The notes under the pieces were generated by a model that had not been told where the DNA came from, did not search any database, and was given only the letters and a program-made list of their open reading frames with translations. The position numbers and the translations under genes were made by a program. Source: Haloterrigena alkaliphila (GTDB lineage: Archaea; Halobacteriota; Halobacteria; Halobacteriales; Natrialbaceae). Taken from it: a stretch of 64,000 bases of DNA. Shown here one piece after another: positions 8,614 through 62,231 of this stretch (position 1 is the stretch's first letter; every line of letters begins with the position of its first letter). Location: the NCBI RefSeq assembly GCF_017352155.2, contig NZ_CP071462.1, positions 1,488,001-1,552,000 of the forward strand, given 5' to 3'.

Positions 8614-8642
8614 ACGGCCTCCATGCAGCGTACCGTGGCAAC

Positions 8643-9950: not shown

Positions 9951-10002
9951 TGCTCGAGCGAGCCGGCGAACCGGACTCTCGACTGCCATTCGTCGAGATC
10001 AC
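9951..10002. repeat. 52-bp direct repeat, left border of AT-rich island
   Basis: This matches 12254-12305 at 42 of 52 positions without gaps and in the same orientation. The first block, TGCTCGAGCG-R-GCCGGCGAA, and the last block, GATCAC, are nearly identical. A short relative, GCTCGAGCGGGCCGG, recurs at 55948-55962. The repeats bracket 2.25 kb of lower-GC DNA. Confidence 0.65.
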
Positions 10003-10147
10003 CGCGCCAGTAGCCCGTCTCCTGACGCGAAACTGATCCGCCGTGACCGACACGGTAGGTGTCTAATCGCCCCTCAAGGACACTCGTCCGGATTTCGCCG
10101 TACACTTCGATCCCAGAGAATAGAGGATTTCTATCTCGAAATTCGAT

Positions 10148-10600
10148 TCATAATGTATCTATGTCGTCCTCGTCGAAGTCCAACTGGGCCTCCTCGGGAT
10201 GTTCGGCTTCGTGGGCCCGGTCGTCCTCCGGCGTTTTCATGAATCTGTATCGATCCCCCTTTTGTAACACATATCCATCTTCGGCGAGGCTTTTGAGCTC
10301 AAGTTTTGTTTCCGTCTTTAGCTCTCCCTCCTCGGCTGCAACCTGCTTGATCTCGTCGATGTGCGCGCCCTGAGCATCTGTCTCCAGTTCCTTGACGATA
10401 GACAGAACATGATGAGTTAGATCGGGGTTTGACCAGGCCTCGAGCGTCGGCCCATCGCCCTTTCGAGCGTTCATCTTCCGGATTTGGTCGAGTATCTGTT
10501 TGTGCATTTTCTCGAGGCGACTAATCCGACGATCGAGGGCGTTGAATTTACGCCGGATCTCGTCCTCTGGTGCCGATTCGCTGCTCTCCCATTCAGTCAT
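10148..10600 (-). CDS. Hypothetical protein with coiled coil and probable winged-helix segment
   Basis: A 150-residue acidic protein not recognised as a named family. Residues about 10-45 (FNALDRRISRLEKMHKQIL) form an amphipathic coiled coil. Residues about 60-120 have the helix spacing and closing beta pattern of a winged helix (EIKQVAAEEGELKTETKL followed by LAEDGYVLQKGDRYRF). The tail is very acidic (FDEDDIDTL). A DNA-binding or regulatory role inside the island is inference. It is the first gene of the AT-rich island and its promoter region (10601-10660) is AT-richer than the chromosome around it. Confidence 0.75.
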   Translation of the reverse strand: MTEWESSESAPEDEIRRKFNALDRRISRLEKMHKQILDQIRKMNARKGDGPTLEAWSNPDLTHHVLSIVKELETDAQGAHIDEIKQVAAEEGELKTETKLELKSLAEDGYVLQKGDRYRFMKTPEDDRAHEAEHPEEAQLDFDEDDIDTL

Positions 10601-10707
10601 TGTTCGTGTAGTTCTCTATACCAGTGTCACTTTACACTATGGGTGAAGTTAGGCGGCCGAACACACCTCTCGCGGGCCAAACTACACGCACTTATCTGGG
10701 ACAGTAG

Positions 10708-10866
10708 TCACACCCGGTCGCTGGTCGCCTCGACCGTCGACCGGATCTGCTGAATCGACTCCTCGAGTACGCCAGTGTTGGTGACGAGTTCAAGATCAGA
10801 TAGTGAACTTATCGCCGACTTTTTGAAAAAGTAAAATGGTTCAAGTATGATCTGTCTCGAGCATCT
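10708..10866 (-). pseudogene. Decayed 3' coding remnant, no start codon
   Basis: A 52-codon open stretch whose last about 30 residues (DLELVTNTGVLEESIQQ then IRSTVEATSDRV) read like the C-terminal helix of a real haloarchaeal protein. No ATG, GTG or TTG precedes it in frame and an in-frame TGA lies at 10869-10867. A second coding-like stretch in another frame (PPLLANELLKMLETDHT) lies just upstream. The best reading is a gene degraded by frameshift or truncation within the island. The family is not recognised. Confidence 0.35.
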
Positions 10867-10988
10867 TCAGGAGTTCGTTTGCGAGCAATGGAGGGATTAT
10901 CTCTTAGCGCAGTATAACAGAAATAGAGAATAATAATCTTCTGGAACTGCGCGACCGTCTATTAGACGCACTTACAGTAATATTATTT

Positions 10989-11171
10989 TCAAAATTTATC
11001 CGCGATCTTTTCAATCGATTGGACGAATCTCCACAACAGATATATTATAATCACTAGTAAGGTGTATCCAAACCAAACAATTACCTCCTGAGATAATAAC
11101 ATAGTTATAATCAAGACAGATATAATTACTATCCCGATTGCAGCTATCTCGTAAATACTTTGCTTATTCAT
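10989..11171 (-). CDS. Small two-helix membrane protein, orphan
   Basis: A 60-residue protein with two hydrophobic helices (about 9-27 and 31-50) separated by a short loop, then a charged tail (FVQSIEKIADKF). Its codons are strikingly AT-rich (many ATA and TTA), unlike the neighbouring chromosome, which suggests recent transfer. Family not recognised. Small membrane proteins of this kind occur in mobile or defence-type islands, but nothing here assigns a role. Confidence 0.55.
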   Translation of the reverse strand: MNKQSIYEIAAIGIVIISVLIITMLLSQEVIVWFGYTLLVIIIYLLWRFVQSIEKIADKF

Positions 11172-11354
11172 GTTCGATAGAATAATCTTGTTCCAATATC
11201 ATATAATTTTCCACATTATCGGATAGGGTCTAATACAATAATTACTTACTATAAAATAGCAAAACTAGCCAACAGAAATATATGAAGTTAGTCACCTATA
11301 TGGAGTTTCCTAAATAGGTAGTATTACGTAATTGTATTGTATGCCTACAATTGT

Positions 11355-11930
11355 ATGGTAGATAGAACCCGACGACAGATTCTTCGGAACACTGGTATCG
11401 GAATTGCTGGCATGAGCACTCTCGCAAGTTCAGCTACCGCAAAAGAAGATCACAGTGGAAAAGGTGTAACTGTAGCAGTCCGGAAGTTTATCGAGAAAGG
11501 TGAGTACCAAAAAGCTAAAAAATTGCTGGAAAAGAACGATATCGAGCATTCATTTGCAATCACACGTCCAGCTAATAACGTATCCATTCAGAATGGCCGA
11601 TACGTTTCTCCTAGCACACATGAAGATACGGAAATATTCGTCGGAGTTTATAATAACTTCAATGGGACGTTCGACGTAGTAAACCGCTGGACCTTAGTTG
11701 AAGAGGGCAGTTGGCTTACATCAAACAGTGTTTGCCCTGATGATGGTGCTGCAATATTCTGGAACGAGAACCATTGGCAGCCAGTAAGTCTCGGAAGAAG
11801 CAACTTCAGTACATCTTACGACTACGTAAATTACGGAGAATATTCTGGTTCGGGTGGAGTGCTGGCAGAAGTTGATATCCCTGCGCCAGAGTCAGATAAC
11901 GGTCGAGATAAAGTAACAGGATCATTCTGA
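11355..11930 (+). CDS. Tat-exported protein of unknown function
   Basis: A 191-residue protein. It starts MVDRTRRQILRNTGIGIAG, a classic twin-arginine signal, with a probable cleavage region after SSATAK. The mature part has a lysine-rich helix region (EKGEYQKAKKLLEK) that is less acidic than typical haloarchaeal proteins, then a Thr/Asn/Trp-rich beta-like region with a single Cys (NSVCPDDG). The ATG at 11355 is preferred over an in-frame TTG 18 bp upstream because the Tat motif then falls at the N-terminus. AT-rich codon use matches the island and differs from flanking genes. Family not recognised; export by the Tat system encoded at 33-37 kb is expected. Confidence 0.75.
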   Translation: MVDRTRRQILRNTGIGIAGMSTLASSATAKEDHSGKGVTVAVRKFIEKGEYQKAKKLLEKNDIEHSFAITRPANNVSIQNGRYVSPSTHEDTEIFVGVYNNFNGTFDVVNRWTLVEEGSWLTSNSVCPDDGAAIFWNENHWQPVSLGRSNFSTSYDYVNYGEYSGSGGVLAEVDIPAPESDNGRDKVTGSF

Positions 11931-12253
11931 ATTGAACTGGAAGATGTGACCGGTGATGGGCGTAACTATCCCATTAAAGGACAATAAAAGCATACTTGTA
12001 TAAATACGAACACAAGAACTTGTTCTGGAGCGAATGCTGGGTTAAGTCTCGGTCCTGTATCCATTTCGGTAAGTGATAATGTCCAAAAATGGAGTATGGC
12101 CGCTCAAGATTCATATTAGTATAATGTAATTTTCGGATTAATTCCGCGGTAAACGACATCGGATCGGTGACGATCCACCGCCTTTGACCGTACAGCGAAA
12201 TGTCCGACTGCCGCGCTTCGTGATGCTGTAGTCCGCTAGCGGAACGTCCTGGT
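11931..12253. other. Gene-free right part of the AT-rich island
   Basis: 323 bp with no credible ORF on either strand. It changes from AT-rich to GC-rich near 12130. It contains a small hairpin TCCGCTAGCGGA immediately before the right-hand 52-bp repeat. Confidence 0.5.
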
Positions 12254-21889: not shown

Positions 21890-22130
21890 GATGTGGGGGG
21901 TCGAGAAACTCGTCACCTATTCAGCGTGCTGAATAGTCTCTCACGAGAGAAAGACTTGGTTGCCAATATATTTGGGACGACTATCGGTCGATTCCGTCCA
22001 GTAGAGATACTACCTGTACTCGCTCCAATTTTCATAGCCTGATTTAGGTAAAGAAGCCGCGCTACTATCTACTGGTACGCGACTGTGACTGGGATAGAGA
22101 ACCCGATTTTCTGCTGCTATCGGGGCATCT
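21890..22130. other. Spacer before the family I hairpin array
   Basis: No gene. It contains the 16-mer CTACTATCTACTGGTA at 22062-22077, which recurs exactly at 33269-33284 next to the family II element. Confidence 0.5.
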
Positions 22131-22533
22131 GGGGATTGCCACCACCTCCCCCAACCGATTTCTGCTCACGGGCGCTGCGGGACGGCTTCGCCGTCCCGAC
22201 AGTCGCGGCGCGTAGCGCCGCGCTCTGCCCGTTCGCATGGTTCGCGGAACCTTTGGTTCCGCGCTAACGCTCGTTCACGTTCGTTCACTCACTCATCCAC
22301 AGGAAGACGCTTCGCGTCTTCCAAGCCATTCGCTCGTGATATCTGCTCACGGCGGCGCTGCCGCCGTCTGTTCACGGGCGCGAAGCGCCCGTTCACATGG
22401 TCGGCGAGACTGGAAGTCTCGCCCTATTCGCATAGTCTGCGGGACCGAAGGTCCCGCACTACCCGCGACGACCTCGCACGACTTCGTGCTACGGTTCGGT
22501 ATCCCTCACCGTGGCACAGCGCGCGCCACCGCA
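22131..22533. repeat. Dispersed non-coding repeat, family I, copy b: array of nine hairpins
   Basis: Same ends as 8643-8816 (GGGGATTGCCAC at the left, CACAGCGCGCGCCACCGCA at the right) but expanded to 403 bp. Eight perfect inverted repeats follow each other with 8-9 bp arms and 3-nt loops: 22178-22198 (loop TTC), 22204-22222 (GTA), 22243-22263 (TTT), 22302-22322 (TTC), 22349-22367 (GCT), 22374-22392 (GAA), 22403-22423 (GGA) and 22438-22458 (GAA). A weaker one is at 22476-22489. Arms are unrelated in sequence between hairpins. Spacers are 5-38 nt and often read GTTCAC or TTCGC. No ORF is credible. Confidence 0.75.
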
Positions 22534-22594
22534 CCCGGTGGCTCGAGCTGGTACGTCCGTAGGGCGACTCCATCCCGAAAAACATCGTCGTCGC

Positions 22595-23218
22595 TTACGT
22601 CGCTTTCTCGAGTCGCGTCCGGGGGAAGACGTAGACCTTCAGCGACTCGGGGACGACGCCGTTCTGGGCGACGGTCGCGTGGGGGTAGACGGCGCCGACG
22701 ACGGGGACGTCGGGCTCGTAGTCCTCGTTCGTCGCGTACTCGGCGACGGTGGTGTCGGTCCCGCCGATTCCGACGGCGTCGGCGCGGAGGTCCGAGACGT
22801 CGACGACGGTGAGTCGGTCGCCCGTCTCGCGGTCGACGACGGCGTCGCCCGGGTGGAGCGCGTGCTCCTCGCAGTAGAACGGCTCGGACTCCGACTCGTC
22901 GACGAAGACGGTGTCGCCGCAGTCGTGACACGCGACCGCGATCCGGCCCGGCGGCGGGGTGCGGCCGTGCGTAATCTCGATGGCGACCCGGCGGATGTGC
23001 TTGCAGCGGGCGTCCCGGAAGACGTGATCCGGACAGGTACACCGGCCCGCCTCGAGGTCGACGAGGTAGGTGTGGTCGTTGGCGGACTCGATCTCGTAGA
23101 GGCCGTCGCCCAGCCCCAGCACCGACATCGGTTCGGTGCGGGCGCGGCGCGATCGCTCCTCGAGGTGGTCGCTCGACGGTACTGGCAGTGCTGTTTTCGG
23201 TGACGCTGTTGTGTTCAT
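22595..23218 (-). CDS. SWIM zinc-finger domain protein
   Basis: A 207-residue protein. After a Ser/Arg-rich N-terminus, residues about 35-80 carry the SWIM finger: CTCPDHVFRDARCKH (CxC...CxH). A second zinc-binding-like segment (CHDCGDTVF then FYCEEHAL) follows at about 97-122, then a beta-rich C-terminal domain. SWIM fingers mediate DNA or protein binding, and archaeal members are found near recombination or repair genes. The specific role is unknown. Start is the ATG at 23218. Confidence 0.85.
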   Translation of the reverse strand: MNTTASPKTALPVPSSDHLEERSRRARTEPMSVLGLGDGLYEIESANDHTYLVDLEAGRCTCPDHVFRDARCKHIRRVAIEITHGRTPPPGRIAVACHDCGDTVFVDESESEPFYCEEHALHPGDAVVDRETGDRLTVVDVSDLRADAVGIGGTDTTVAEYATNEDYEPDVPVVGAVYPHATVAQNGVVPESLKVYVFPRTRLEKAT

Positions 23219-23565
23219 AGGTGCGTCGGGTGGTGATCGCGAAATCGCCGGTAGCGGTGGTCGACGCGGCGTCGATCACCGGTTCGGTAGTCGGTTCACT
23301 GTTCGAATACGGTAGGGGCTCAGGGACTATAACGACCGCGCCGGCGACTGCTGGGTGTCGATTTATGTGTACGGACGCGAGGCGGAACCCCTTCGCTTCC
23401 GGTGGAACCCGGCGGTCGTTCGGCCCCAGCGGCCGTTCGACCCTGCTGGCCGTCGATCCTGGTAGCCGTTCGTGAGACCGGGCCCTCCAGCTCGTCTGGC
23501 CCGCCGAGACGCGGTGGGCCGCCCCTTCGAAGCCCTTTTGACCGGGCCGCCGAAACGAACGGACA
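23219..23565. other. Intergenic promoter region between divergent genes
   Basis: 347 bp without a credible gene, between divergent starts. It has imperfect 17-18 bp repetition of GCCGTTCGACCCTGCTG type at about 23430-23475. Confidence 0.45.
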
Positions 23566-23832
23566 ATGGTCGAACGAGACCAACTCATCGAAATCGGCGT
23601 CGCCGTCGCCACCGTCATCGTGATGCTCGGGACCATGATCAGTATCGGGTCCACGTACGGCGGCGACAGCGGGACGCTCTCGGCCGACGGCGGCCAACTG
23701 CTCGTCATGGCTATCACCGGCTTCATCTTCCTCATGCTCGTCGTCGGCATCACCCTCGCGTACGTCCTGAACGACCCCGAGGACGGCCTCGAGTCGGACG
23801 AGACGGACGCCGACGCCGGGAGCGCGATCTGA
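23566..23832 (+). CDS. Small two-helix membrane protein
   Basis: An 88-residue protein with two helices (about 8-27 and 45-67) separated by a Gly/Ser loop (STYGGDSGTLSADGG) and an acidic tail. It belongs to a widespread haloarchaeal uncharacterised group by general appearance; I cannot name the family with certainty. Another small membrane-protein gene follows 42 bp downstream in the same direction, so an operon is likely. Confidence 0.75.
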   Translation: MVERDQLIEIGVAVATVIVMLGTMISIGSTYGGDSGTLSADGGQLLVMAITGFIFLMLVVGITLAYVLNDPEDGLESDETDADAGSAI

Positions 23833-27781: not shown

Positions 27782-28239
27782 ATACGCCGTGCTACGGACG
27801 GTTGCCATAAAAAGCCACCCTTTACGCGTGGCTGGGCCGCCGCCGCCGGCCCGATTTCGAGGTGCGTCGGCAGGTCCGGCGGCGGTGCCGGGAACGCGGC
27901 TCCGACCGCGAGATTTCGGTCAGTACTCCTCGCGTAATCGGATCGCGTCGTCGGTGAGCTCTCGGTTCGCGTAGGTTCGTCCACCGTTCGGCGGGATAAC
28001 TGCTGGCCCGGATTAAGCAAACCCGTAGAGTTTGCGATGTTCGACGAGTCAACGACCGAACGAGCGAAGCGACGCGAAGACGTGGACTCAACGGAAGACT
28101 TCGTCTTCCGAGCCTTTGCTCGCGGTGCTCGCAAAGACGTCGGGAGTTCGCAACCGAGACGGCGATCGACTCGCAGACGGGCCGACGCCTCGAGACGTCG
28201 ATCCCGGGATTGTGGATGCTCGAGCGCCGGATATCCCGC
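27782..28239. other. Gene-free region with hairpins upstream of pcn
   Basis: 458 bp without a credible gene. Inverted repeats are GCAAAC/GTTTGC near 28017-28035; CGGAAGAC-TTC-GTCTTCCG at 28092-28110, with the same 3-nt TTC loop as the array at 22 kb; and CTTTGC/GCAAAG at about 28114-28136. The first 130 bp upstream of pcn probably hold its promoter. Confidence 0.55.
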
Positions 28240-32941: not shown

Positions 32942-33360
32942 GACGGATCGCTGTAACAGCAGTTGTAACGGATTTCTTTGTTCAGAACTGTGATCGGTGC
33001 TGAATTTGGTGATTCGGTAACTACGCGTACCAACATTTTGCTCTGCGCTCCCTCGCTCTGCTCGGTCGCTCGGCAAAATGTTGATTAACAGCACTCCTCC
33101 CTCCCTTGGCTCGCGGCGTTGCCGCTCGCCGTACCGCGGCGCTTCGCGCCGCGCTTTCCGGGTCGGTCGTCGGCCCGCTCGCTCACTCCGTTCGCTCGCG
33201 GTGAGTGTACACTCTTTGGGCTGGACTTACCGTACGTTGCACGCTCAAAACCGAATAACGAAACTGTACTACTATCTACTGGTAAGGGTTTCCCGGCGCA
33301 ACTGCGACCGTCCTGCGGATGCGTCGACACCGATTTCTAGCAGTCTGGCTGACCGGTCGG
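32942..33360. other. Intergenic region carrying a family II repeat
   Basis: No gene. It contains the family II element (33031-33104), a CGCGGCGC-TTC-GCGCCGCG hairpin at 33135-33153, the 17-mer GCTCACTCCGTTCGCTC near 33181-33197, and the 16-mer CTACTATCTACTGGTA at 33269-33284. Confidence 0.6.
33031..33104 (+). repeat. Dispersed non-coding repeat, family II, copy a
   Basis: CAACATTTTGC (33031-33041) and GCAAAATGTTG (33073-33083) form a perfect 11-bp inverted repeat around 31 nt. After 2 nt comes TAACAGCACTCCTCCCTCC (33086-33104), which occurs exactly in reverse orientation at 62118-62100 with the same arrangement. Confidence 0.75.
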
Positions 33361-61865: not shown

Positions 61866-62231
61866 AACCGAACTTTTTTGGCCGGGTCCTCGCTCACTCC
61901 GTTCGCTCGAACCCGGCCAAAAAACTTCGATGAAAAAAGGCCGAGCGCGTCGCTTCTCGAGGGCTTCGCTTTGCTCAGCCCTCGCTACGCTCGCGCTCGG
62001 TACTACTGCTTGCAGCGGAGGAGTCACCGTTAGCATCCGCGAGCGACCAACGGGAGCGAGCGGGCCAACGACTGATGTGAGCGAGCAGCGCGAGCGAACG
62101 GAGGGAGGAGTGCTGTTATACTAAATTTTGCCGAGGGTATGGCGAAGCCGCGCCCGTGGTTCGAAAGGCGCTTCGCGCCTTTCGTCATCACGAGAGAGCT
62201 TCGCTTTCTCGAACGACAGAGCAAAATTTAG
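61866..62231 (-). repeat. Family II non-coding repeat copy b with nested inverted repeats
   Basis: TTTTTTGGCCGGGT (61874-61887) pairs with ACCCGGCCAAAAAA (61911-61924), a perfect 14-bp hairpin just after the DUF5789-like gene. Further inside are CCGAGCGCG/CGCGCTCGG pairs. CTAAATTTTGC (62121-62131) pairs with GCAAAATTTAG (62221-62231) and encloses CGAAAGGCGC-TTC-GCGCCTTTCG (62162-62184) and CGAGAGAGC-TTC-GCTTTCTCG. The 19-mer shared with 33086-33104 lies at 62100-62118 in reverse orientation. No ORF is credible. Confidence 0.75.

Follow-up and report, generated by a model that had tools for sequence, protein, structure and literature searches.

The window analysed here is a stretch of 64,000 nucleotides of Haloterrigena alkaliphila (contig NZ_CP071462.1, positions 1,488,001 to 1,552,000). 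Eight perfect hairpins with arms of 8-9 bp and loops of 3 nt lie within 22178-22458 of it, and together with a weaker ninth they were found where a first, sequence-only reading had placed an array (22178-22489); the cores of the same architecture that it had listed at 28092, 33135, and 62162 are also present (Table 1). When the open reading frames of the neighbourhood were searched against Pfam, just HalOD1 and the primase large subunit were recognised nearby, and the frame that overlaps the array (22237-22812) belongs to no Pfam family. Congener orthologs of the flanking gene at 22506-23753 have no adjoining array, the best match covering part of the protein, and the array appears to be lineage-specific at its position in the window; the ortholog comparison shows little more. 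All the units of the array, which are described below, lie within a single copy (22109-22533) of a dispersed intergenic repeat, the O-element. This repeat is usually compact (about 140 nt), with the head TTCTGCTATCGTGGCAACAGGGAATTGCCACACCCTCCCCAGCCGATT and the tail GACAGCGCGCGCCACCGCA. There are 32 heads in 864 kb (G000:C1, 1,088,001-1,952,000), including one near position 8631 of the window; a tail was found within 450 nt for 24 of them, and 22 of these 24 show a head-to-tail distance of 63-142 nt and no detected unit. Units occur in just two of the 32 O-elements, and in the copy of the window the head-to-tail distance is 370 nt. When G003 and G001 were compared (loci L131 and L160), the units were at different places of one O-element.

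Table 1. Components of the hairpin array and related hairpins, in positions of the window
Feature	Positions	Strand	Remarks
Perfect hairpins with 3-nt loops	22178-22198, 22204-22222, 22243-22263, 22302-22322, 22349-22367, 22374-22392, 22403-22423, 22438-22458		
O-element head TTCTGCTGCTATCGGGGCATCTGGGGATTGCCACCACCTCCCCCAACCGATT	22109-22160	+	One of 32 heads in 864 kb
Unit A	22161-22266	+	Interrupted in first hairpin; second hairpin 22243-22263; CM R1 59.5 bits, E 3.8e-11
Second double-hairpin kind	22174-22226	+	Hairpins 22178-22198 and 22204-22222; lodged within hairpin 1 of unit A; ends known to within a few bases
Single hairpin GGAAGACGC-TTC-GCGTCTTCC	22302-22322	+	Loop is GAA in other copy in same genome
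Outer unit B, left half	22342-22366	+	TCTGCTC and hairpin 1; hairpin 22349-22367 shares its last base with unit C
Inner unit C	22367-22426	+	Complete, 60 nt; hairpins 22374-22392 and 22403-22423; CM R1 84.7 bits; 20/20 pairs
Outer unit B, right half	22427-22461	+	Linker, hairpin 2 (22438-22458), and CTA; partial CM match 22428-22458
Weak ninth hairpin GCACGACTTCGTGC	22476-22489	+	Body of O-element (CCTCGCACG...), not of a unit
O-element tail GGCACAGCGCGCGCCACCGCA	22513-22533	+	
Hairpin GGAAGAC-TTC-GTCTTCC	28092-28110	+	Resembles 22302-22322; not assigned to a unit
Hairpin CGCGGCGC-TTC-GCGCCGCG	33135-33153	+	Just downstream of TTTTGC...GCAAAA palindromic repeat 33032-33083; related architecture, not the 60-nt unit
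First hairpin of another kind of double hairpin, CGAAAGGCGC-TTC-GCGCCTTTCG ... GAGAGAGCTTCGCTTTCTC	62162-62184	+	Inside TTTTGC/GCAAAA repeat 62121-62231

The hairpins are real and far beyond chance. Counts by loop sequence rest on the 864 kb around the window and on covariance model (CM) searches. In the 864 kb, hairpins with a 3-nt loop and arms of at least 8 bp numbered 104 compared to 28 in one dinucleotide-model shuffle, which is about fourfold, and with arms of at least 9 bp the numbers were 45 and 9. GAA (13) and TTC (11) top the list of loops. By a home-made gene caller, 50 of the 104 hairpins are intergenic while intergenic DNA is about 20% of the sequence, and the intergenic share of hairpins of other loop lengths is near 20%. 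Adjacent pairs of 3-nt-loop hairpins were observed 19 times, compared to 0-1 in five shuffles and 0-4 at any other loop length, and therefore the basic architecture is the pair and not the single hairpin. The arm sequences, which had been taken to be unrelated, in fact form two homologous series, hairpin 1 (ACGGGCGC, ACGGCGGC) and hairpin 2 (CGCGGAACC, GGCGAGACT, TGCGGGACC), with a few other kinds.

The first traces of a repeated unit came from BLAST of plasmids, which matched segments of the array to a Natrinema plasmid and to Halostagnicola, and the unit was delimited by aligning these matches with other copies in the H. alkaliphila genome. It is 60 nt long, TCTGCTCACGGGCGC-nnn-GCGCCCGTTCGCATGGTTCGCGGGACC-nnn-GGTCCCGCGCTA, with constant ends, a constant linker, and two hairpins whose order is fixed. 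Its conserved non-palindromic parts are TCTGCTC, TTCGCATGGT, and CTA, and the non-palindromic ends and linker are kept between genera. In CM searches there were 30 copies in the H. alkaliphila genome and 16-46 in five congeners, and the unit was present in 61 of the 80 relatives searched. When genomes of 84,980 species were scanned for the exact pattern, 46 contigs matched, of which 45 carry the label Halobacteria and one, a MAG, the label Euryarchaeota; these contigs include Natrialbaceae, Haloarculaceae, Haloferacaceae, and others. Copies occur in both orientations and in unrelated contexts, and no description of the unit was found in the open-access PMC literature. The hairpins of the array are copies of this dispersed, structurally conserved unit and not independent de novo palindromes.

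Unit A starts directly after the O-element head, and lodged in it is a double hairpin of about 50 nt whose kind differs from that of the 60-nt unit. This insert recurs in an H. alkaliphila copy at C1:1439770-1439814, where the 3-nt loop of the first hairpin is inverted, and unit copies in G005 have inserts of similar length. Unit C sits exactly inside unit B, 60 nt within 60 nt, and rejoining the two halves of unit B restores a unit of precisely 60 nt in which 20 of 20 pairs form. Similar nests of a unit in a unit are found in congeners and in other genera, and there are two levels of nesting in L095.

The two hairpins occupy positions 3-31 and 37-57 of the unit. Below the apical stem of hairpin 1, TC faces TC in an internal mismatch with a constancy of 97-99%, which reads as a tandem GA/GA on the opposite strand. 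The pair 4/30, which lies beyond this mismatch, varies between G-C, C-G, and A-T. In 100 distinct 60-nt copies, standard pairs were found in 98.6% of the cells compared to 91.6% (maximum 92.2%) when the 3' partners were shuffled, and double changes, spread over many positions, numbered 136 compared to a shuffle mean of 21 and a maximum of 33; this covariation figure is inflated, because a structure-aware model was used to collect the copies and because the copies share descent, a relatedness that the shuffles keep. Plain copying from arm to arm is expected to erase the TC/TC mismatch; that it stays constant suggests recognition of the folded shape by some factor.

Empty and filled sites were compared at orthologous intergenic loci of congeners. 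At L169, a 54-nt insert (TCT...CTA) is present in G002 at GCTGCG^CTCAC and is absent in G004, G001, G005, and H. alkaliphila. At L161, the unit is present in G002 and the site GATT^CGCTC is uninterrupted in G004, the difference being 61 nt and not 60 as there is one extra A; G005 also has the unit, and gain and precise loss are indistinguishable there. G003 was not alignable and was left out of these two comparisons. At L096, the unit is present in G004 and absent in H. alkaliphila. There was no target duplication at the compared empty and filled sites, nor in the nest of the window. At 26 dissimilar sites the preference was for C at -5, a pyrimidine at -2, T at +2, and C at +3, with no fixed word; preferred sites resemble C(G)(C)YN^YTCG(C), and the base preceding the unit is not fixed. 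Units can nest because the unit interior, CCG^TTCGC, fits this preference. The unit is thus discrete, dispersed, and structurally conserved, it inserts without target duplication, it has a site preference, and it can insert into itself.

A predicted regulator gene in L173:17-826 has a 58-nt unit within its HTH region, and this insert shifts the frame. An intron-like insert that is removed from the RNA was considered and rejected, as this HTH gene is frame-shifted and L112 resembles a decayed chimera. Pairs of 3-nt-loop hairpins are also seen in apparent coding sequence at G000:C1:1613331-1613385 and 1563369-1563408, and these are possibly tolerated inserts.

Loops were compared in 47 pairs of homologous hairpins whose 120 flanking bases were at least 95% identical. 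The loop differed in 15 of the 47 pairs, and in 8 of these 15 the two loops were exact reverse complements (GAA/TTC, TCT/AGA, GTT/AAC, and GCA/TGC); no other three-base change was found. Two of the eight inversions are one event (L102 compared to L103 and L172) and about seven are independent. The clearest is at one locus, where the loop is GAA in G001 and TTC in G002 and G004. Because 8 of the 15 differences are exact reverse complements, we conclude that the hairpins fold in situ and that their loops flip orientation in place. These flips, at arms of 8-9 bp, would be explained if the strand switches template inside the hairpin or if a small cruciform is resolved, and the same events perhaps keep the apical arms perfectly matched. 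In chloroplasts, small flip-flop inversions are bounded by inverted repeats of 11-24 bp, according to work cited in PMC12928735.

The sequence-only reading had proposed that the array arose by repeated de novo formation of palindromes and not by copying, each hairpin forming independently by fold-back synthesis at a pre-existing sequence. There are several kinds of hairpin with different arms that have the 3-nt loop length in common, as such an origin would give, and the in situ inversion of loops shows that fold-back or cruciform events do take place at these hairpins. To this extent the fold-back idea stands, but it does not account for the origin of the array. The conserved non-palindromic parts, the fixed length and order, the dispersed homologs, the near-exact empty sites, and the nesting all show that a discrete element was copied: the ends and the linker, which are not palindromic, are shared by different genera, whole blocks of 54-61 nt with both hairpins are present or absent at once, and the rejoined outer unit B has precisely the length of a unit. 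De novo formation is already contradicted for the main unit, and we consider it very improbable.

In many genera, units sit in 3' ends of IS605 tnpB genes at a single fixed position, GCCCCA^CCCTC; this site is uninterrupted in L082 of H. alkaliphila. Such tnpB-borne units were found in L089, L091, L092, L093, L097, L099, L104, L176, L184, and others, and they lie inside the palindrome where the omega-RNA would end; other double hairpins lie within the 3' part of tnpB itself in L092, L093, and L104. Not every tnpB 3' end has the unit, and some units lie at a great distance from tnpB. The many IS605-borne copies that share one site may come from one ancient insertion that was carried along.

This location leads to the question whether the unit is a PATE in the strict sense, that is, a minimal IS200/IS605 relic in which the left and right ends are fused and which a Y1 transposase (TnpA) mobilises in trans. 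PATEs of Haloquadratum walsbyi have no transposase, no terminal inverted repeats, near-terminal palindromes, and no target duplication, and they are linked to transposons of the IS605 type, which transpose through single-stranded DNA (PMC3119063). Like them, the unit has no inverted copies at its ends (TCTGC... and ...GCTA), its palindromes are near-terminal, and its insertion duplicates no target; it is also too short to code, it lies inside IS605 3' ends in many genomes, and it has a short sequence preference at its site. However, no full-length IS605 element with the unit's two hairpins at its ends was found in the loci around tnpB, which are an unsystematic sample of complete IS605 ends. 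Furthermore, Y1 was not detected in three congeners, G001, G002, and G004, each about 99% complete, that hold 16-25 units, and one of them, G002, carries the lineage-specific L169 insertion. The number of units was not correlated with the number of Y1 or TnpB, and the variable base before the unit also speaks against movement by Y1. We regard this explanation as a real possibility but lean against it. The unit could instead be a functional structured RNA or a regulatory element under selection, for instance one related to RNA processing or to omega-RNA, with its dispersal being secondary. Covariation together with a constant internal mismatch that is a tandem GA/GA on the opposite strand is consistent with this, and so are the strong folding of the array as RNA (z of -7.8 and -8.1) and the units in tnpB 3' ends where omega-RNAs lie, since the haloarchaeal sotRNA/omega-RNA of IS200/IS605 tnpB is encoded in that very end (PMC12558985, RF02656/RF02657). 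But the folding as DNA is at least as extreme (z of -11.7), and no Rfam match was near threshold in the array or in eight loci, mostly around tnpB, although this is a weak test as tnpB loci were unmatched too. Presence and absence at orthologous sites in close congeners, both orientations in unrelated contexts, and a unit in L173 that breaks a reading frame do not fit an RNA under selection either, which makes this explanation improbable.

The likely explanation, in our judgement, is that copies of a mobile double-hairpin element of about 60 nt, neither coding nor autonomous, have inserted into one another and piled up in one O-element to form the array. The unit would move as a folded single strand, probably at replication forks, and the two hairpins with the TC/TC mismatch of hairpin 1 would be the structure that is recognised, like the near-terminal palindromes of the IS200/IS605-related PATEs. 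Resident hairpins would be places where the DNA often switches template by fold-back or is resolved as a cruciform; the resulting flips of the 3-nt loop are observed, and mutations may also pass from one arm to the other. There is no sign of a host function; the element behaves as a selfish or neutral repeat that is often in other palindromic mobile DNA, such as IS605 tnpB 3' ends and O-elements. A bolder form of this explanation, which we find rather doubtful, is that host replication or repair, working on the folded strand, multiplies the element in cells that have no Y1 transposase, and that its defined target (C..Y^YTCG) is also present within the element itself; the element would then be an archaeal counterpart of the mitochondrial double-hairpin elements, and the loop flips would be a record of extrusion in vivo.

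The closest known kinds are the IS605-related haloarchaeal PATEs and the mitochondrial double-hairpin elements. Like the unit, PATEs are haloarchaeal, short, non-coding, and IS605-associated, and the terminal-only PATEs are of similar size at 52 bp (PMC3119063). Going by the description of PATEs and not by their sequence, the unit differs in being nearly all two different hairpins, and self-nesting and loop inversion, both seen in the unit, are not described in PMC3119063. SMR-A of Haloquadratum also enter the near-terminal palindromes of IS605-type elements and PATEs without target duplication, but they are about 110 bp long with prominent terminal inverted repeats (PMC3119063); the unit, at 60 nt and without inverted ends, is not a member. 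The double-hairpin elements of Allomyces mitochondrial DNA and related repetitive hairpin-forming elements, as reviewed in PMC2800124, resemble the unit in having two hairpins within tens of bases, mobility, no flanking duplications, variable loops, and clusters or tandem copies, and an RNA intermediate has been suggested for the mitochondrial double-hairpin elements (PMC2800124). The unit is likewise a discrete mobile two-hairpin unit without flanking duplication; the resemblance to these mitochondrial elements is of form only, and the unit has in addition the mismatch of hairpin 1 and a defined site preference. REP/REPINs are also short extragenic palindromes with short loops in pairs or clusters, and they have Y1-related transposases in some genomes (PMC3733652, PMC3116915). 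Unlike them, the unit has two non-identical hairpins in direct order and not inverted copies, and no linked transposase was found. Membership in the GTAG/CGTC-REP was rejected, as there is no constant tag: the opposite strand starts with TAG in 73 of 100 copies and otherwise with TCG or TGG, and the preceding base varies.

A widespread class of intergenic palindromes in haloarchaea would thus be a single element whose ends, structure, and site preference are defined and whose insertions are polymorphic, and which can be tracked between strains. Where it lies inside tnpB 3' ends that encode omega-RNAs it may alter guide RNAs. The loop inversions are direct comparative evidence that hairpins of 8-9 bp extrude or template-switch in living haloarchaea, and cruciform or fold-back events at short palindromes in vivo become testable by sequencing. 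For the movement of double-hairpin elements, a culturable archaeon would be a better system than mitochondria.

Another intergenic repeat class, TTTTGC...GCAAAA, has an outer stem that holds one to five 3-nt-loop hairpins and is often just after a stop codon; besides the two copies of the window (33032-33083 and 62121-62231) it is found at G000:C1:1268044-1268300 and 1123410-1123680. Elsewhere in the window, the G+C content of 10001-12000 is 0.45 compared to about 0.66 for the genome, which suggests recently acquired DNA.
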